From the IMG/VR virus record IMGVR_UViG_3300010370_000251, positions 1-23,696 of that record: a stretch of 23,696 nucleotides of DNA; one strand, 5' to 3'. The stretch comes from a virus. Position numbers and translations under genes: made by a program. Below the pieces are notes generated by a model, which was not told the DNA's origin, searched no databases, and saw only the letters and a program-made list of their open reading frames with translations. This document shows, in pieces, positions 2,288 to 13,322 of this stretch (the stretch's first letter is position 1; every line of letters starts with the position of its first letter).

Positions 2288-2739
2288 TGATTCAAAACCT
2301 TTATATATTTGTACTTGCGCTCTGTTGGCTGGTCTGTCCTGCGTGGCTTGCCTTTGGTGTGTATCCACTGCCCCCCCCCGCAAGCACCAACGCCAACCCA
2401 TCCAGATGCTTTGAGGCTTGTGCCTGTCTCGCTTTCCAAGATGTAGGTTTGTATAGACTTATAACCAAGTTCTTTACCGACACGAGCAGCTGCGCCATAA
2501 AGACATGAGCAGGCATTCTTTGTGCCGTCAGTCACACAGCGTGTAACCTCTAATACTTCTCTGTAATCAACCAAGCGGGCAACTGGTCTGCCAATGATGG
2601 CTGCACCGTGAAGGTTTCCATCTTCATCTATACACCCAATGCTGAAGCGGTGACCAACTACAGGCTTATGGTGGCGGTGGTGTTCCGCCACATAAGCATT
2701 TGCATCCTTCAACTCAAGAGGGATGATTTTTAATTTCAT
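2284..2739 (-). CDS. XF1762-family phage protein (GNAT-like)
   Basis: The 151-residue product carries the signature of this phage family: LKDANAYVAEHHRHHKPVVGHRF is reached by residue 31, followed by SIGCIDEDG, IIGRPVARLVDYREVLEVTR (49-67) and DGTKNACSCLYGAAARVGKELGY. The fold resembles a GNAT acyltransferase, but the biochemical role is unknown to me. The ATG at 2739 overlaps the ERF stop (ATGA), and its own stop overlaps the ATG of the Tad2-like gene, so translation is probably coupled. Residues Gly121-123 are encoded by nine consecutive G bases (2371-2379 on the plus strand as C), a tract prone to slippage; a one-base change would alter the last 30 residues and the coupling to the next gene. 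Confidence 0.8.
   Translation of the reverse strand: MKLKIIPLELKDANAYVAEHHRHHKPVVGHRFSIGCIDEDGNLHGAAIIGRPVARLVDYREVLEVTRCVTDGTKNACSCLYGAAARVGKELGYKSIQTYILESETGTSLKASGWVGVGACGGGQWIHTKGKPRRTDQPTERKYKYIKVLNQ
2371..2379 (-). repeat. Homopolymeric G9 tract inside the XF1762-family gene
   Basis: Nine consecutive C on the plus strand (G on the coding strand) encode three glycines. It is the longest homopolymer noticed in the window. It could be a slippage-prone contingency tract or simply a spot with elevated sequencing error; the reading frame is intact as given. Confidence 0.85.
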
Positions 2740-3233
2740 CTACTGAGTGGCCTTGCTGCTGCTGGTTTGATTGGCTCATCTATGACAATGTTGCCCTGTG
2801 GGCCTCTACGGTAGCCATCCTGAGGCTTTACCGCCTCGTTTGCATCATCATCTTCATCGGCTGAGATAGCCAGCAGGGAAGACACCGAGTATCTCCGACC
2901 ATAAGTAAGAGCAGAACCGAAGCCGTGAGCATCATGCTTAGTGATAGGCACTACAACGCTCTGTGCTACCCATTCACCGCTTGCATGGATGATGCGGGAC
3001 TCTACCTCTATCGCCGTTACTTTGTCTTCTGTGACGCTCTGTGACGTGATTCCCTGCGACAACATCAAACCGTGCTTAGTGAGCACAGGTCGGATGGTGT
3101 CAAGAATGCTATCGAGCGTAACGTATTTACTGCGGAAGGCAGGGTTGTTGCCTTCCTTTGCGATACCTGACATCTCCCCTTGCGCTTTGATGAGCGCAGG
3201 GGCGATGCCTGTGATGCTTTCTGATGTCTTCAA
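2736..3233 (-). CDS. erf: ERF-family single-strand annealing recombinase
   Basis: ERF proteins anneal complementary single strands in phage recombination. The 165-residue product shows the family hallmarks: an N-terminal helix with PALIKAQGEM, the NPAFRSKYVTLDSILDTIRPVL block (30-51), GLMLSQ, and the near-invariant GSALTYGRRYSVSSLLAI-x-ADEDDDAN (106-132). The C-terminus is a short, likely disordered Pro/Arg-rich tail. It is somewhat shorter than the roughly 200 residues typical of the family. The start is TTG at 3233, supported by GGGAG 8 nt upstream and by a TTGA overlap with the stop of the preceding gene. The Gam-like gene in the same operon completes a recombination module. No paired RecE-type exonuclease is in the operon; a VRR-NUC nuclease is encoded at 5222. 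Confidence 0.9.
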   Translation of the reverse strand: MKTSESITGIAPALIKAQGEMSGIAKEGNNPAFRSKYVTLDSILDTIRPVLTKHGLMLSQGITSQSVTEDKVTAIEVESRIIHASGEWVAQSVVVPITKHDAHGFGSALTYGRRYSVSSLLAISADEDDDANEAVKPQDGYRRGPQGNIVIDEPIKPAAARPLSR

Positions 3234-3859: not shown

Positions 3860-4084
3860 ATGATTAGAGGACTTACACAACAGGAGCTGGCACGTAGGAC
3901 TGGTTTTACCCAGCCACGAATCAGTGACTATATGACAGGCAAAAAGGCTCCGGGTGATACCAGCCTTCTCAAGCTCGCAGAGGCGATGGATATGGATCCT
4001 GCGGAACTCAGCAAGCAGTTGATGCTACGAAGGACACTCCGCAAAGGCAAAGCACCGGAACAACCAGAAGTACCGGGCGAATAG
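3860..4084 (+). CDS. Cro/CI-type helix-turn-helix regulator
   Basis: This 74-residue protein is essentially one HTH domain: LTQQELARRTGFTQPRISDYMTGKKAPGDTSLLKLAEAMDM (residues 5-45) has the classic Xre-family spacing, with helix 2 at QQELARRTG and the recognition helix at QPRISDYMTG. The C-terminal 20 residues are basic then Pro-rich and probably disordered. There is no peptidase or dimerisation domain of the lambda CI type, so SOS-induced self-cleavage is unlikely. It is transcribed away from the early operon, and the palindrome at 3813-3828 overlaps both promoters, so it probably represses the early operon and itself. It heads a plus-strand group with the sigma factor. Confidence 0.88.
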   Translation: MIRGLTQQELARRTGFTQPRISDYMTGKKAPGDTSLLKLAEAMDMDPAELSKQLMLRRTLRKGKAPEQPEVPGE

Positions 4085-4111: not shown

Positions 4112-4420
4112 ATGCGACGATGCAACGATTGTGCGAACAGTGTAGTAGATAGTGATGCAGTGTGTACGGCTTGCCGTTTGGCTGAGTGGAAGGATCAGCA
4201 ACAACAGGCAGAGGCAGAGCGCCAAAGACAATATGCGCTGGAGGCTAATAGGGCTGCATATCTTGCCAAGAAGAAGTATATGCGTGATGCGATCAAGGCT
4301 GGTGTTATCACTGCGGTATCGGTTCTGCTTTTCTTGGCTTTCGTTAGTGCCACCCGTGATGCAATGCGGTACGAATGGGAAACCAAGCCAGCACTACTCA
4401 AAGCCAATGGAGTTAAGTGA
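4112..4420 (+). CDS. Zinc-ribbon protein with one transmembrane segment
   Basis: Four cysteines (Cys4, Cys7, Cys18, Cys21; CNDC and CTAC) form a likely zinc ribbon at the N-terminus. Next comes a charged Gln/Glu/Arg-rich helix (about 25-58, probably coiled coil), then one hydrophobic segment (about 63-81, GVITAVSVLLFLAFVSA) and a short tail. The product would be a membrane-anchored cytoplasmic zinc ribbon with the tail outside, or the reverse. No family with a known function is recognised. ATG 4112 has GGAGATAAGAGACA in front; the stop overlaps the GTG of the sigma gene (GTGA), so the two are probably co-translated. Confidence 0.75.
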   Translation: MRRCNDCANSVVDSDAVCTACRLAEWKDQQQQAEAERQRQYALEANRAAYLAKKKYMRDAIKAGVITAVSVLLFLAFVSATRDAMRYEWETKPALLKANGVK

Positions 4421-5235
4421 CACCAAGTAGAACAACCATCAGACAGACGCTCCGGACCCTACAAAGGACACCGGAGCGTTTGTTGTCTCACGATGAGATG
4501 GTACTGCTCCACTCTGGCTGGAAGCACGGCATCATGCAGACAGAGTGCCTAGATGCCATGGTGCGTCATAACATGGGTTTTATTCGTGAGGTCTGCAAGG
4601 TCATCAAGCACAAGGAACACTTTGTGGATGCCTGCCAGTACTGCGTCGAGGGCTTGATTAGAGCAATCGAAAAGTGGGAGCCAGAGCGTGGGTTGCGCTT
4701 CTCGACTTACGCTCATCCGTGGATCTATCAGAAGCTCAGGCGTTATCAGTCTAACCAATACAGAACCATCCGGATTGCCGAACACGCACTTGTAAAATGG
4801 CACAAACTCAAGCGTCATTACGTCATCCTAGAACTCGAATTAAAGCGACCACCGACAGATGAGGAACTATCCGAGCGCAGCGGGATGAGCCTTGAAACCA
4901 TTGACATATGCCGTACCGCAGCAGGCATTGAGCCTGTCAGCATGGACACCCCGGTACAAGGTTCTGAGCTGGTCTTGGGCGATACTGCGGTATTCGGTAG
5001 CACACCATCAGCTGAGGATGAGTACTTTAGCGAGCAGGAAGGTACGCTGTCCGATGCCCTGCTTAGACTCGATGAAGAAACCCGGCAGATGTTAGTGCTG
5101 CATTATGGCTTAGATGGGCGTGTACCGCAGACAATCCACATGGTAGCCAGTCGTTACAGAATGCCACCCGTAGTGGTCAAAGAACGCATCAACAAAGCAT
5201 TGCAGGAACTTAGGAGCATCCATGAAGCATCTTGA
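4417..5235 (+). CDS. Phage-encoded sigma-70 family RNA polymerase sigma factor
   Basis: The 272-residue product has sigma regions 2 to 4 without region 1.1. Region 2 is at about 47-110 (VRHNMGFIREVCKVI, then DACQYCVEGLIRAIEKWEPERGLRFSTYAHPWIYQKLRR). Region 3 (about 115-180) begins RTIRIAEH, and region 4 is at about 212-268 (LLRLDEETRQMLVLHYGLDG, with a C-terminal HTH). Against E. coli RpoD region 2.4 (YATWWIRQAITR) the phage has YAHPWIYQKLRR: the first melting Trp is Pro and the position of T440, which helps read the first -10 base, is Arg. This suggests altered -10 specificity; late genes here carry GATACT rather than TATAAT. The start is GTG with a 4-base overlap. The stop overlaps the next gene by 14 bases. 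Confidence 0.88.
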   Translation: MTPSRTTIRQTLRTLQRTPERLLSHDEMVLLHSGWKHGIMQTECLDAMVRHNMGFIREVCKVIKHKEHFVDACQYCVEGLIRAIEKWEPERGLRFSTYAHPWIYQKLRRYQSNQYRTIRIAEHALVKWHKLKRHYVILELELKRPPTDEELSERSGMSLETIDICRTAAGIEPVSMDTPVQGSELVLGDTAVFGSTPSAEDEYFSEQEGTLSDALLRLDEETRQMLVLHYGLDGRVPQTIHMVASRYRMPPVVVKERINKALQELRSIHEAS

Positions 5236-8264: not shown

Positions 8265-8633
8265 ATGGATATTGAGTTTTTGACGTGGAGCCAACTGAAG
8301 CAACGTGCTGAACTGGATCGCAAGCAGAATGGCAAAAAGTATGACCATGAACTTGACGTGGCTATTGCATGGCTTCAAGATGGTCACCGCTTGACATTCC
8401 ATAGGTGGGCTATGCGGCGAGACTTTGAAACGCATCTAATCCTTGAAGGCGATACCGTGCTAATCGTTGAGTGTGATGGCGCTCGTGGTTCATTCTGCCG
8501 TCTCAACGACTTGACCTACGATGAGTTTCTATTGATTCCTGCATCTCATGAAATCGGAGAACATACGCCATACCCTGCATGGATTTATGGCGAGCTTGAA
8601 GTTCCACAGATGCGCTTGAAAAATAATGTTTGA
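8265..8633 (+). CDS. Hypothetical protein with possible Tad2-like core
   Basis: This is a 122-residue soluble protein. Residues about 30-93 recall DUF2829: a helix then WLQDGHRLTFHRWAM, beta strands (THLILEGDTVLIVECDG), and LTYDEFLLIP where family members usually have the D-x-L-x-x-DWE end. The match is weak because the Trp-Glu end is missing. N- and C-terminal extensions (30 residues each) are not recognised. ATG 8265 is preceded by AAGGAATAAAGACA. A promoter -35 overlaps its stop codon, so it ends one transcription unit and the next begins there. Confidence 0.65.
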   Translation: MDIEFLTWSQLKQRAELDRKQNGKKYDHELDVAIAWLQDGHRLTFHRWAMRRDFETHLILEGDTVLIVECDGARGSFCRLNDLTYDEFLLIPASHEIGEHTPYPAWIYGELEVPQMRLKNNV

Positions 8634-9279: not shown

Positions 9280-9615
9280 ATGAAACAAACTAACCAATCA
9301 CTCGCCGAAGCTATACAAGGCATGGCACAACACGTTATCGACACGCAGCGGGAAATCTTTGCAGTTATCGACTGCCCGCTACACATTCAGGTCAGCTCTG
9401 ACCATTCTGAGATCCACATGACCAAGGGTGCGCTGCACCTCATGATCGCACTAAATGGCGATGACGCTGGTATTTACGACTGCAACTCCATGGGCTACTG
9501 TATTCAGAATCCGTACTGGGTTGGCTCACTCAAGGTAGCTGATGTACTCGCAGACATCTGGGCAGTCTCATACAACATTGACCGCTTCATGTCTCAGCAG
9601 ACGGTAGCCAGTTGA
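9280..9615 (+). CDS. Hypothetical phage protein
   Basis: This 111-residue soluble protein begins MKQTNQSLAEAIQGMAQHVIDTQ with a helix. A beta-rich middle follows (PLHIQVSSDHSEIHMTKGALHLMIALNGDDAGIYD), then a helical end. No known family is recognised. ATG 9280 was chosen because GGGAGATAAAGACA is directly upstream, the same extended ribosome binding motif seen at 3756 and 4112; an in-frame start at 9229 would place the hairpin inside the coding region. The stop overlaps the TTG of the DUF3310 gene. Confidence 0.75.
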   Translation: MKQTNQSLAEAIQGMAQHVIDTQREIFAVIDCPLHIQVSSDHSEIHMTKGALHLMIALNGDDAGIYDCNSMGYCIQNPYWVGSLKVADVLADIWAVSYNIDRFMSQQTVAS

Positions 9616-9845
9616 CCGGACACTACCGGACATCTAGCATTCAAGCCCTCAGCGTCATTGACGACTGGGGGCTGGACTTTGCTACAGGTAATGTCCTCAA
9701 GTACATTCAGCGGATGCCACACAAAGGCACAAGAAACGCTGACAGCATCAAGGCACTTTGGTATCTGGCTTATGCCGTAACCAGGGACGTAGACTTTGCT
9801 GATCGGATAGCAAGCGAAGCGGAGGCACTCAATGGAAACACCTAA
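9612..9845 (+). CDS. DUF3310 family protein
   Basis: The 77-residue product fits DUF3310, a small protein common in phage replication and nucleotide-metabolism regions: HYRTSSIQALSVIDDWGLDFATGNVLKYIQRMPHKGTRNADSIKALWYLAYAV carries the HY, IQ-x-I, GNVLKYI-x-R and K-A-x-WYL positions. The function of the family is not established. The start is TTG, overlapping the previous stop as TTGA, and the end overlaps the next ATG by 14 bases. It lacks the longer C-terminal extension seen in some members. Confidence 0.85.
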   Translation: MTGHYRTSSIQALSVIDDWGLDFATGNVLKYIQRMPHKGTRNADSIKALWYLAYAVTRDVDFADRIASEAEALNGNT

Positions 9846-10101
9846 ACCATATTCAATTTATGAAACTAGGTTAGAGCAATGCCGTAAAACCATAATGCAT
9901 GAACTGACATTGAATAATGGATGCGTAGCAACAAGTACATTCAAATATCTTGTACTCAATCAAGGATTTCCGATTGCTACTTATCAACGTGCATTGAAAT
10001 CTTTAGCAGATGAAAAACGCATCTTTACAAGACGTGGATCATTGCAATATGTGGTTTTACTAGAGAACCACTCGGAGGCACTCAATGCCACGACCAAGTG
10101 A
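9832..10101 (+). CDS. Small AT-rich gene, possible winged-helix protein
   Basis: The 89-residue product has a helical N-terminus and then a pattern suggestive of a winged helix: STFKYLVLNQGFPIATYQRALKSLADEKRIFTRRGSLQYVVLLEN, where the last part would be the beta wing. No named family is recognised. The gene is AT-richer than its neighbours (20 of 60 bases G+C in 9901-9960), which suggests separate acquisition. It overlaps the genes on both sides, so it is translated within the operon. It directly precedes the HTH-Tad2 fusion gene. Confidence 0.65.
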   Translation: METPKPYSIYETRLEQCRKTIMHELTLNNGCVATSTFKYLVLNQGFPIATYQRALKSLADEKRIFTRRGSLQYVVLLENHSEALNATTK

Positions 10102-10495
10102 GACAGCCCTAACAGGCATTGCCAAGAGACAAAAACTACTAGACAGGTTTGACGAGTTATGCGATCAAGGTATGAGCCACGATACAGCTGCACGAACCAT
10201 AGGCTACAACCCGACAACCGTAGGACGCTGGCTCAAAGAGCGTGAGGTCTACCGACAAAAAGACGATGATGCACGAAGGCTTACCCTTGCAGGTGGCTCA
10301 TTCTCAGCAGCACTTGAAAGACTCCGAGCAGGACATCTTGTACACAGACGTGGGGCTTCATGGTTCCTTCAGATTGTAGATGGCAAGATATGCCTGTACA
10401 TGGTTGATGGTGCTGGTAACCGTAGATTCATCCGGGTTGCCACCTTTGGTTCTGCTGATGTGCTAGCAATGGACTGGGAAGTATTCATCGGATGA
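10085..10495 (+). CDS. HTH domain fused to a DUF2829/Tad2-like domain
   Basis: The 136-residue product has two parts. Residues about 15-56 (RQKLLDRFDELCDQGMSHDTAARTIGYNPTTVGRWLKE) form a homeodomain-like helix-turn-helix of the kind found in small terminases and transposase-type regulators. Residues 72-134 carry the DUF2829 pattern: SFSAALERLRAGHLVHRRG, several beta strands, then SADVLAMDWEVF. This C-terminal half is the closest to the family consensus in the window. A DNA-binding domain joined to a family whose best-known member binds a cyclic nucleotide suggests a ligand-responsive regulator, but this is inference. It overlaps the gene before and the Tad2-like gene after (ATGA), and begins a run of three consecutive Tad2-like genes. 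Confidence 0.75.
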   Translation: MPRPSETALTGIAKRQKLLDRFDELCDQGMSHDTAARTIGYNPTTVGRWLKEREVYRQKDDDARRLTLAGGSFSAALERLRAGHLVHRRGASWFLQIVDGKICLYMVDGAGNRRFIRVATFGSADVLAMDWEVFIG

Positions 10496-10698
10496 GATTC
10501 GAGCAAGCATACCGATGGCTAAGGCGTGGCAAGTGTATACGCCGAACTGGTTGGGCTTCCTGCTGCCATATAGAGCACTCACAAGGCGAGCAGGTAAGAC
10601 ACTACAACGGTAGACGATGGCAAGGGTATACCCTTCTAATGCGAGATCTATTTGATGACGAAGGACAACCAAGGGATGACTGGGAGGTAATGAGATGA
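10492..10698 (+). CDS. DUF2829/Tad2-like protein, copy 2 of the cluster
   Basis: The 68-residue product matches DUF2829 across its length: MRFEQAYRWLRRGKCIRRTGW, a short beta region, then LLMRDLFDDEGQPRDDWEVMR. It is closest to the minus-strand early copy at 2069-2287 (shared IRR-x-x-W and the DDWEV-R end) despite lying on the other strand 8 kb away. Tad2 proteins work as oligomers that bind nucleotide signals; a short protein like this could be such a sponge. The ATG overlaps the preceding stop (ATGA). The first ten bases, ATGAGATTCG, are identical to the start of the next gene, a sign of duplication. Confidence 0.78.
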   Translation: MRFEQAYRWLRRGKCIRRTGWASCCHIEHSQGEQVRHYNGRRWQGYTLLMRDLFDDEGQPRDDWEVMR

Positions 10699-10934
10699 GA
10701 TTCGGAGATGTAGTACAAGCCTTGATGGCTGGTGGTGGTAACGCAGTATGGCGAGAAGACTGGGGAGGCTCAGTATTCCTGCGGTATTCCGAACTGTGGA
10801 ATGTCTTTGAACTGCATGGACCTAAGGGACGGGTAACACAGCTGGAAGAGTTGAGCCTATCCCCTGGTGATTTGTTTGCTAACGACTGGGCACTGGTTGC
10901 CATTGATCCACAGAGCGGATGGGTGAAACAATGA
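10695..10934 (+). CDS. DUF2829/Tad2-like protein, copy 3 of the cluster
   Basis: The 79-residue product begins MRFGDVVQALMAGGGNAVWREDWGG, continues with beta strands (VFLRYSELWNVFELHG) and ends SPGDLFANDWALVAID, keeping the D-L-x-A-x-DW core of DUF2829. Wre-x-x-W replaces the usual R-x-x-W. It is clearly related to but diverged from the gene before it, so the two may bind different ligands or form mixed oligomers. ATGA overlaps join it to the genes on both sides. The 13-residue C-terminal tail after the family core is not conserved in the other copies. Confidence 0.72.
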   Translation: MRFGDVVQALMAGGGNAVWREDWGGSVFLRYSELWNVFELHGPKGRVTQLEELSLSPGDLFANDWALVAIDPQSGWVKQ

Positions 10935-11230
10935 TGATTGATAGAGCTATTCTTGCATTACTAAATGGTAAGGCAATAAGACGCAAAATAGCACCTGATG
11001 GATGGTTTGCTTTGGATCAGACCACAAAAGAAGAGCGATCATTGGTTGGTGATGTCGAATTGATGCGTCTAGTTGGTAAGGGTGGAGCCGAATACAACGG
11101 TTTGCGCCTAACTACAGAATGGATCTGCGCCACCGATTGGGAATGCGGACAACCAAATCGAAGAAATGGCTGGGGCATAGATTGGAATAATATAGTCGGT
11201 GACAAAGGACTGGAGGCAGATCCAAGATGA
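10931..11230 (+). CDS. Diverged DUF2829/Tad2-like protein, copy 4
   Basis: The 99-residue product starts MMIDRAILALLNGKAIRRKIAPDGWFALD, which fits the family N-terminus, and has LRLTTEWICATDWE at the position of the usual D-x-L-x-x-DWE. It has an inserted segment in the middle and a 25-residue tail (CGQPNRRNGWGIDWNN...) absent from other copies. ATG 10931 was chosen over 10919 because it gives the ATGA overlap used throughout this operon. Family membership is likely but weaker than for the two genes before it. Confidence 0.62.
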   Translation: MMIDRAILALLNGKAIRRKIAPDGWFALDQTTKEERSLVGDVELMRLVGKGGAEYNGLRLTTEWICATDWECGQPNRRNGWGIDWNNIVGDKGLEADPR

Positions 11231-11433
11231 TTATCTTTGCCCTTGGAATCCTGCTGGGCGCTGGGTGCTTGGCTGTCTACAATGAGATGTATACACGTTG
11301 GCTATACGCTGATGTCAAGAGACGAGCGAAACAGCAAGGCATCACAGAACGTCAAATGAAAGATGCCCTCATATGGGCAACCAAAGAAGAAATTGAGGCT
11401 AACCTAAATGCCAGCACAACCCGGAGCAGGTAG
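11227..11433 (+). CDS. Small membrane protein with N-terminal anchor
   Basis: This 68-residue protein begins with a hydrophobic segment (MIIFALGILLGAGCLAVY, residues 1-18), then a charged helix (YADVKRRAKQQGITERQMKDALIWATKEEIEANL). It would be anchored in the membrane with a cytoplasmic tail. No family is recognised and no convincing lipobox is present. It overlaps the gene before it (ATGA) and terS after it by 26 bases. Small anchored peptides like this in phage accessory regions are often exclusion or host-interaction factors, but there is no direct evidence here. Confidence 0.65.
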   Translation: MIIFALGILLGAGCLAVYNEMYTRWLYADVKRRAKQQGITERQMKDALIWATKEEIEANLNASTTRSR

Positions 11434-11773
11434 ACCAACAAAGTATAAACCGGAGACGGTAGAGAAGATTCTAGAGGCTCTGCGAGGTGGTAACACCCGC
11501 AGGGCTTCCTGTGCTGTTGCCGATGTTTCGCAGGATAGCCTAGCCCTTTGGCTTAGGATTTATCCCGAATTTGCGGAAGCAGTAGAAAAAGCAGAAGGCA
11601 AAGCCGAAGCTAAGATGGTTTCAATCATTCGTGATGCTTCCGAAACAACATGGCAGGCGGCTGCATGGTGGCTAGAACGGAAGCACAAAGCCGAGTGGTC
11701 TAGCAGGGTAGAACAGACCGGCGCAGACGGTAGCCCAGTAAAGGTAATCGTGGAGTACGCAGACAAACCATGA
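11408..11773 (+). CDS. terS: Terminase small subunit
   Basis: The 121-residue product matches phage small terminase proteins: basic N-terminus with GAGRPTKYKPETVEKILEAL, a helix-turn-helix (SCAVADVSQDSLALWLRIYPEFAEAVEKAE), a helical oligomerisation part (KAEAKMVSIIRDASETTWQAAAWWLERKHKAEWS) and a beta-like C-terminus (SPVKVIVEYADKP) that could contact the large subunit. It would recognise the packaging site and hand DNA to the large subunit. Unusually the large subunit gene does not follow directly; a 372-base Tad2-like gene lies between. ATG 11408 sits inside the preceding small membrane-protein gene. Confidence 0.82.
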   Translation: MPAQPGAGRPTKYKPETVEKILEALRGGNTRRASCAVADVSQDSLALWLRIYPEFAEAVEKAEGKAEAKMVSIIRDASETTWQAAAWWLERKHKAEWSSRVEQTGADGSPVKVIVEYADKP

Positions 11774-12141
11774 CAGGACTTGAAGCCTTAGCATATTTAC
11801 GCAATCACAGATTCGGTGCTGTTCGGTGCAAGGATTGGGCAGAAGATGAATTTATTCTTACAAAGTCTTCAGCCCATGAAGAGTCATGGTGGCATTACGA
11901 ACCATCCCAGATGCTTGAAAGATATTTTCCTAAAATTGATGACTACGATAAACCGTGTCTAACTTCCACGAATGTATTCACAATCTTTGAGATGTTCTTT
12001 TACAATGTCTTTCAACGAGAGTGGGAGATATTCGATTCCACTAAATGGATTGGCTATGCCCCTGTCAAATGTAAACCTACCGATTATTACAATCCAGAGT
12101 ATCCAGGAGACGGAATCATAAGCAGAACAGACCATAACTGA
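11770..12141 (+). CDS. Diverged Tad2-like protein inserted between terS and terL
   Basis: The 123-residue product keeps the outline of DUF2829: MTGLEALAYLRNHRFGAVRCKDWAEDEFIL at the start and NVFQREWEIFD in place of the usual DWEVV end, with a long insertion between (about 55 residues with a CLTSTNVFTIFEMFF stretch). A 35-residue tail follows. Its base composition is lower in G+C than terS and terL (23 of 60 in 11881-11940). ATGA and TGATG overlaps link it to both terminase genes, so it is co-translated. Membership in the family is inferred from pattern only; a DUF of unknown function is the alternative. Confidence 0.55.
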   Translation: MTGLEALAYLRNHRFGAVRCKDWAEDEFILTKSSAHEESWWHYEPSQMLERYFPKIDDYDKPCLTSTNVFTIFEMFFYNVFQREWEIFDSTKWIGYAPVKCKPTDYYNPEYPGDGIISRTDHN

Positions 12142-13322
12142 TGCCTGATATACGATTGGTTCTCCCTCGACCACATGAAGGACAAAAGGTAATACTGGCA
12201 CAGGCAAGGCGATACAACGTCCTTGCCTGTGGCTGAGTAGGTAGACGCTTTGGTAAAACAACACTCGGCGGTAATTTACTTTCCGACCCTATCCTAAAAG
12301 ATGCACTCCCTTGTGCTTGGTTTGCGCCTACCTACAGGCTCCTAGAAGAGGCATACAACGATCACAAGCGCATCTATCAGCCTGTGATACGGCGAGCTGT
12401 GCAGACTCCTGCTCCACGCATTGAACTGATTACCGGGGCGGCTATTGATTACTGGACTCTTGATGACCCATCAACCGTTGCCCGTGGTCGTAAGTACAAG
12501 CGGGTAATCATCGATGAAGCCGCCATGGCTAGGCATCTAGAACAAGCCTGGACGGAAGCCATCCGCCCAACACTAACAGACTACAAGGGCGATGCTTTCT
12601 TTCTGTCTACGCCCAAGGGCTCTAACTACTTCAAGATCTTGTACGGCATGGCTGGTGCAGATCCGGACTGGATGGCATGGCAGATGCCTACTACCGCTAA
12701 CCCTTGGATAGATGCTACGGAAGTAGACAAGGCTGGAGAGTCTCTGCCGAGCATCGCATTTCGTCAGGAATACCTAGCGGAGTTCGTTGATGCGGCTGGT
12801 GCTCGTATCAAGCGTGAGTGGTTGCGCTATGGTGATTGCCCTGAAGGCTTGCCCACCTACATCGGCGTTGACCTTGCAATCAGTACCAAGAGTGAAGCCG
12901 ACTACACCGGGGTGGCTGTTGTATCCCGTGGTGAAGATGGCACGATCTACGTTAGAGACATCAACCGGACTCGTGCTGACTTTGCTTCTGTGCTACGCTT
13001 CATCGAGGCCATGGCTGAAAAGTGGAAACCCACCATGATTGGCATCGAGCAGGTGCAATATCAGGCGGCTGTTGTGCAAGAGCTTCTTAGACGTACCAAA
13101 CTGCCTATTCGGGGAATACGCCCAGACCGTGACAAAGTGACCCGCTTTGCGCCTCTGGAAGCCCGGTACGAACAATCACAGGTTATGCACTGCCAAGGGC
13201 TCCCGGCTTACTTTGAGGATGAGTTGTTATCCTTCCCAGTTGGTAGGCATGATGACGTGGTGGACGCTCTGGCTTATGCTTGGCAGGTATGCGGATCAAA
13301 GCGCGGTTGGGGTGCAGTCTAG
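12141..13322 (+). CDS. terL: Terminase large subunit, interrupted by in-frame UGA at the P-loop
   Basis: The packaging ATPase/nuclease is encoded in one frame from ATG 12141 to TAG 13320-13322, except for TGA 12234-12236. N-terminal residues read IRLVLPRPHEGQ...RYNVLACG, then TGA GTA, then GRRFGKTTLGG (Walker A, 12240-12272). Later motifs are intact: Walker B VIIDEAA (12504-12524), C-motif region FFLSTPKGS, RNase H-like nuclease acids in YIGVDLAI (Asp at 12870), IGIEQVQY (Glu at 13047) and RHDDVVDALAYAW near the end. Removing nine bases (12234-12242) gives LACGRRFGKTT, the usual terminase form. Stops also lie in the other two frames here. It is therefore a broken gene, a recoded gene or a sequence error. 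GTG 12384 could restart translation but would omit the P-loop. Confidence 0.8.
12199..12231 (+). other. 11-bp perfect hairpin abutting the terL stop
   Basis: CACAGGCAAGG (12199-12209) and CCTTGCCTGTG (12221-12231) pair perfectly around an 11-nt loop. The last paired base is the first base of the GGC codon that precedes the in-frame TGA (12234). It lies wholly within coding sequence and has no T-run, so it is not a terminator. It may be a recoding signal or a relic of insertion. Confidence 0.7.

Follow-up and report, generated by a model that had tools for sequence, protein, structure and literature searches.

Diverged Tad2-like (DUF2829) proteins in a gene cassette beside the packaging genes of an uncultured phage

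Genes at the locus

The window considered here is a whole virus record of 23,696 bases from an uncultured phage. Its main feature is a cassette of small Tad2-like genes, for which the DUF3310 gene and the terminase small-subunit gene (terS) were taken as the limits; genes are named by the first coordinate given in Table 1. One further Tad2-like gene, 2069, lies apart from the cassette in a leftward early operon, and its start codon (ATG 2287) shares bases with the stop codon of the gene before it. The same operon also holds genes for a Mu Gam-like protein and an ERF recombinase (1279-1848 and 2736-3233, both on the minus strand). Elsewhere in the window, a Cro-like helix-turn-helix (HTH) gene at 3860 adjoins the gene for a phage-encoded sigma-70 family factor.

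Table 1. Coordinates of features in the window and the matches on which their naming rests
Feature	Position	Strand	Evidence
Tad2-like protein, leftward early operon, 72 aa	2069..2287	-	PF11195 24.6 bits; hhalign E 1e-15
Sigma-70 family factor	4417..5235	+	regions 2, 3, and 4
Proposed seventh copy, conserved family of its own	8265..8633	+	hhalign E 0.03-0.06; 21-member alignment A3
DUF3310 gene, upstream border for copy counting	9612..9845	+	PF11753 38.9 bits
HTH-Tad2 fusion	10085..10495	+	PF11195 19.6 bits, residues 72-133; HTH_23 19.1 bits, residues 25-51
Stand-alone Tad2-like protein, 68 aa	10492..10698	+	PF11195 20.4 bits; family HMM 30 bits; hhalign E 2.8e-12
Stand-alone Tad2-like protein, core member, 79 aa	10695..10934	+	PF11195 24.9 bits; AlphaFold2 pLDDT 88
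Diverged Tad2-like protein with C-terminal tail, 99 aa	10931..11230	+	family HMM 24.8 bits; profile A1
Terminase small subunit (terS), downstream cassette border	11408..11773	+	phrog_4102 99 bits
Borderline, very diverged possible relative, between terS and terL	11770..12141	+	hhalign E 1.3e-4, probability 52-54%, 27 N-terminal columns
Terminase large subunit (terL)	12141..13322	+	

No near match to the record was found at the DNA level among 50,697 phage records. At the protein level, known phages gave weak matches, and just for 10695 and 10085. Many relatives of the cassette were present in IMG/VR. Two scans of GTDB genome contigs in search of a host returned 0 relatives, and searches of NCBIfam and Rfam yielded nothing useful.

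Family membership and predicted fold

The earlier note on this DNA had proposed seven DUF2829 copies in the window. Five of these (2069, the C-terminal half of 10085, 10492, 10695, and 10931), rather than just one or two, were placed in the family by profile searches and are confirmed as DUF2829/Tad2-like. Direct matches to PF11195 (DUF2829; now named Tad2-like) were obtained for 2069, 10085, 10492, and 10695, all slightly below the Pfam curated cut-off of 25 bits, and 13 of 20 related records contained a match above it; none was obtained for 10931, 11770, or 8265. An HMM grown from 10695 scored 56 bits against 2069, 30 against 10492, 25 against 10931, and 14 against 10085. Profile A1, a 28-member family alignment from related contigs that includes the five window copies, recovered all five from the window with E-values of 2e-13 to 3e-18, and profile-profile comparison (hhalign) with A1 gave E-values of 1e-15 for 2069, 4e-12 for 10085, ~3e-12 for 10492, 2e-22 for 10695, and 1e-31 for 10931. 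Because the five copies themselves sit in A1, these values are inflated, and the weight therefore rests on two independent tests. Searched against the PDB, A1 matched seven sequences, all of them Tad2/AcrIIA7 (best E 6.7e-8), and 26 of its 28 members matched PF11195 when scanned singly (E up to 0.1). Searches of the PDB with single copies by phmmer found no Tad2; the family profile alone reached it.

The two remaining candidates fared differently. Gene 11770 is a borderline, possible Tad2 relative, its hhalign match to A1 (E 1.3e-4) covering only 27 N-terminal columns. An AlphaFold2 model built from 8 sequences was poor (pLDDT 60) and gave no match in fold comparison. For 8265, a seventh copy is not supported, as its E-values against A1 fall inside the range given by six unrelated neighbor genes used as controls (0.02-0.5). 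The 8265 family is small and conserved in these phages, with invariant W36, G40, T56, and L58; its outline resembles DUF2829, yet the profile link lacks significance.

The description of 10085 as a DUF2829 protein holds for its C-terminal half (window positions 10301-10492), to which the PF11195 match is confined. Its N-terminal part (~residues 16-66) is a helix-turn-helix of the HTH_23 type, which the first reading of the sequence had missed. All 20 aligned orthologues of 10085 matched PF11195.

The product of 10695 was modeled with AlphaFold2 from 51 alignment rows at a pLDDT of 88, with a predicted order of helix, four strands, helix, and strand. Comparison by VIA-align put ten Tad2/AcrIIA7 entries on top (Z 8.6-9.6; rmsd 1.8-2.1 over 64-66 residues), and the first chain outside this group followed at Z 4.0. 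Foldseek also ranked AcrIIA7 first, though with an E-value of 0.065; the fold claim rests on the VIA-align comparison. We thus predict with good confidence that 10695 has the Tad2 fold. The structural comparison with Tad2 suggested in the earlier note was accordingly positive for 10695, whereas the poor model of 11770 returned no match.

Conservation and coupling of the cassette

Related DUF3310-to-terS spans contained 1-6 Tad2-like copies, mostly 2-4, and the long contigs of this phage group contained 2-6, with five in the window. Known phages sampled for carrying Tad2 had one or two matches per record. As a cluster of many diverged copies, the locus stands in its multiplicity and, for 10695, in its fold. 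The commonest spacing between successive Tad2-like genes was a 4-base ATGA overlap (122 consecutive pairs), followed by a spacing of 622 bases (57 pairs), where relatives have a ThyX gene; span and pair counts are loci rather than independent genomes, some contigs having been fetched by more than one query. The conserved ATGA coupling is compatible with the formation of mixed oligomers, which are putative. A panel of copies with different ligands, as the earlier note proposed, is a possibility.

Median dN/dS was 0.14 for 10695, 0.11 for the fusion, 0.05 for 10492, and 0.16 for terS, low values that indicate that the cassette genes are real and constrained by purifying selection. Orthologues of 10695 were 63-99% identical (alignment A4), and the window copies were 20-38% identical to one another. 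In a tree of the paralogues, whose columns are too few to resolve deep branches and which was read for nearest neighbors only, four of the five window copies were closest to genes that occupy the same position in other genomes; the early-operon copy 2069 had no close relative in it. The low mutual identity and the same-position relatives elsewhere indicate that the window copies are old paralogues. The first ten bases shared by 10492 and 10695, ATGAGATTCG, had been taken as a trace of tandem duplication. This could not be upheld, since the ATGA is forced by the stop/start overlap, both proteins begin with MRF, and they are only 25% identical overall.

Two members recur with particular regularity. 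Among the complete spans, all 48 retrieved with 10695 contained the fusion, and 29 of the 35 retrieved with the fusion contained a 10695 orthologue. The accessory copies differ among relatives, falling into 34 clusters at 55% identity, and DNA methyltransferase genes adjoin them. In some relatives (e.g., loci L029, L034, L006, and L086), genes for ThyX (~220 aa), dUTPase (133-138 aa, between terS and terL), and DNA methyltransferases, all named from sequence, replace the window's Tad2-like copies or 11770 in the stretch from the fusion to terL.

It is possible to read this neighborhood as one of phage nucleotide metabolism, in which the Tad2-like domains would sense or hold a deoxynucleotide or modified nucleotide and the HTH fusion would be a metabolic regulator. 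Many relatives have a ThyX gene that separates the fusion from the 10695 orthologue, and a dUTPase gene located between terS and terL. The window cassette, however, has neither gene, with Tad2-like copies occupying their place, and gene neighborhood by itself is weak evidence; we regard this reading as quite unlikely.

Pocket loops, the HTH fusion, and possible functions

Tad2 is a phage protein that sequesters bacterial alarm signals, and it works as a homotetramer whose protomers enclose two gcADPR pockets between them. According to a review, loop b1-b2, loop b3-b4, strand b4, loop b4-a3, and helix a3 together make up the gcADPR pocket, and an insertion between b2 and b5 accommodates cyclic dinucleotides (PMC12043709). 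We aligned 11 reference proteins, comprising nine phage Tad2/DUF2829 proteins together with HgmTad2 and ModTad2; the nine were retrieved with an SPO1 query, which biases the set towards canonical motifs. Two motifs, GWNG and W..S..D (the latter before the DW end), were present in 11 of the 11 references, including Tad2 solved with ligand, and were kept even in a Listeria phage homologue only 27% identical to SPO1 Tad2 and in the 72-aa homologue of mycobacteriophage Curiosium. Both motifs were missing from all five window copies and from all 250 distinct Tad2-like reading frames that were compared from this phage group, whereas the [D/E]W end was retained in 239 of the 250 and RxxW in 147. The motifs were placed on pocket loops by sequence alignment rather than by superposed coordinates. 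Most canonical Tad2 proteins exceed the copies in length; shortness as the cause of the motif loss was rejected, given that the Curiosium protein has both motifs. The comparison of pocket residues between copies that the earlier note had called for thus spoke against its view of them as Tad2 sponges.

The relationship to characterized proteins is therefore one of fold more than of pocket. With SPO1 Tad2 (gp34.65) and ModTad2 (PF11195), the window proteins share the fold (10695, Z 8.6-9.4), the N-terminal helix, RxxW, the DW end, small size, and phage origin, but they lack GWNG and W..S..D and have shorter loops. This phage group also differs from them in having several old paralogues per genome, translational coupling, and an HTH fusion. 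HgmTad2/AcrIIA7 (PDB 8kbi, 8kbj, and 8kbk) was both the top profile match (E 6.7e-8) and the top structural match (Z 9.6), but the window proteins lack its long b2-b5 insertion, the site of cyclic dinucleotide binding (PMC12043709), as well as both motifs. Judged from these residues, binding of the known Tad2 ligands by copies in this phage group appears less likely. Classical Tad2 sponges, which would block Thoeris or CBASS by sequestering gcADPR isomers, hisADPR, or cyclic dinucleotides, are the least likely of the readings considered here: homology and the Tad2 fold agree with them, and known Tad2 proteins with different ligands have also diverged, but motifs found in every reference are found in no copy of this group, and the 72-aa mycobacteriophage homologue shows that small size does not explain their loss. 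It is mainly for the absence of both pocket-loop motifs that we do not file these proteins as Tad2 sponges.

The HTH-Tad2 fusion exists in two forms that differ in the type of HTH but have the same C-terminal domain, in which D-G-x-G-R, A-x-F, and D-x-x-A-x-D-W do not vary from one form to the other. By alignment, these residues fall on the b3-b4 and b4-a3 loops, which line the Tad2 pocket (loops per PMC12043709). The architecture of 10085 suggests regulation alongside, or in place of, sequestration. Anti-CRISPR operons are regulated by HTH proteins of the Aca type. The likeness here is that of a small HTH protein accompanying a cassette of candidate anti-defense genes; the difference is that the HTH is fused to a candidate ligand-binding domain, and autoregulation is putative.

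Starting from the features established by computation, namely the fold of 10695, the homology of five copies, the ATGA coupling, purifying selection, and the loss of two pocket-loop motifs, we favor, tentatively and with less than even confidence, a putative ligand-binding module of altered specificity with a counter-defense or regulatory role. In this reading, the cassette upstream of terS encodes several Tad2-fold (DUF2829) domains that are maintained together as one translationally coupled unit, with the HTH-Tad2 fusion and the 10695 type as its two core members and with other stand-alone copies added or swapped in relatives. These domains may recognize small ligands, probably of the nucleotide type, that differ from those known for Tad2, and they may serve counter-defense, and the HTH-fused copy could act as a one-component sensor that detects such a ligand and regulates the cassette. 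The invariant pocket-loop residues, the conservation of the fusion and 10695, the coupling, and the dN/dS values of 0.05-0.14 count for such a module, as do the fold of 10695 and the restriction of A1 matches in the PDB to Tad2/AcrIIA7. A counter-defense or nucleotide-related role is consistent with the neighbors in relatives (DNA methyltransferases, ThyX, and dUTPase) and with the way in which accessory copies turn over. On the other hand, the absence of the canonical motifs could mean that no ligand is bound, and such strong conservation of the two core members would be unlikely in a fast arms race.

Alternatively, the Tad2 fold may serve as a scaffold for protein or nucleic acid contacts rather than for small ligands, for instance, to inhibit a host nuclease or a CRISPR effector, or to help in replication or packaging. 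The loss of both pocket motifs in 250 of 250 relatives with retention of scaffold residues, the shortness of the copies, the position next to terS, and the deposition of one fold-family member as AcrIIA7 all point this way. We consider it possible but somewhat doubtful, as the residues that never vary in the C-terminal domain of the fusion lie together at the pocket loops and the AcrIIA7 structures contain bound cADPR and cGG. It is also conceivable, if unlikely, that this phage group has signaling of its own, built on the Tad2 sponge fold, in which HTH-Tad2 would switch transcription on sensing a nucleotide of immune or metabolic origin and the cotranslated stand-alone copies, with their non-canonical pockets, would form mixed oligomers that soak up several ligands so far undescribed as immune signals.

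Should the altered pockets of the favored ligand-binding module bind ligands, they would be leads to undescribed immune signals, and through the HTH fusion the phage would have a sensor of host immunity. Otherwise, the name given to PF11195, "Thoeris anti-defense 2-like", extends to proteins without the Tad2 binding motifs, which calls for caution in automatic anti-defense annotation.

An in-frame stop codon within terL

A separate observation, possibly more important than the Tad2-like cassette, concerns terL, in which an in-frame GGC-TGA-GTA-GGT interrupts the Walker A motif. Read from ATG 12141, terL encodes MPDIRLVLPRPHEGQKVILAQARRYNVLACG, followed by TGA (12234-12236), GTA, and GGT, after which it resumes in the same frame with RRFGKTTLGG and continues to the stop at 13322. 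Many relatives read LACG-RRFGKT without the nine bases. A pattern scan of IMG/VR DNA for the element returned 80 stretches with 73 distinct alleles, of which 67 had GGC-TGA-GTA-GGT, 4 had GGC-TGA-GTA-GGC, and 1 each had GGC-TGA-GAA-GGC and GGC-TGA-GTA-GAT. Matching glycine codons flank the stop in 72 of the 73 alleles, the frame is open on both sides in 71, and a sense codon replaces the stop in none.

We regard the element as a candidate natural in-frame stop-hop (programmed bypassing). A 2016 review knew of no natural in-frame stop-hop and listed a Streptomyces phage terminase as a suspected case of bypassing (PMC5009743). Peptidyl-tRNA(Gly) would leave GGC and re-pair at GGU or GGC, which would give exactly the uninterrupted terL protein. 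The main rival is readthrough of the TGA with insertion of X-V-G, which accounts better than a hop for the single GAT allele, present at three loci.

The sequence ahead of the stop can form a hairpin (~12197-12233) of 14 pairs that ends exactly at the GGC before it (-24.8 kcal/mol; z -5.25). In 15 distinct sequences, all cells of the hairpin were paired, and two pairs had changed on both sides through synonymous substitutions; given the close relationship among these alleles, the two double changes represent few independent events. Over the 51 bases up to the GGC codon, median folding was -23.6 kcal/mol in interrupted genes versus -15.7 in uninterrupted ones. The arrangement resembles that of T4 gene 60, where the take-off codon is likewise followed by a stop and bypassing is aided by a take-off stem loop.
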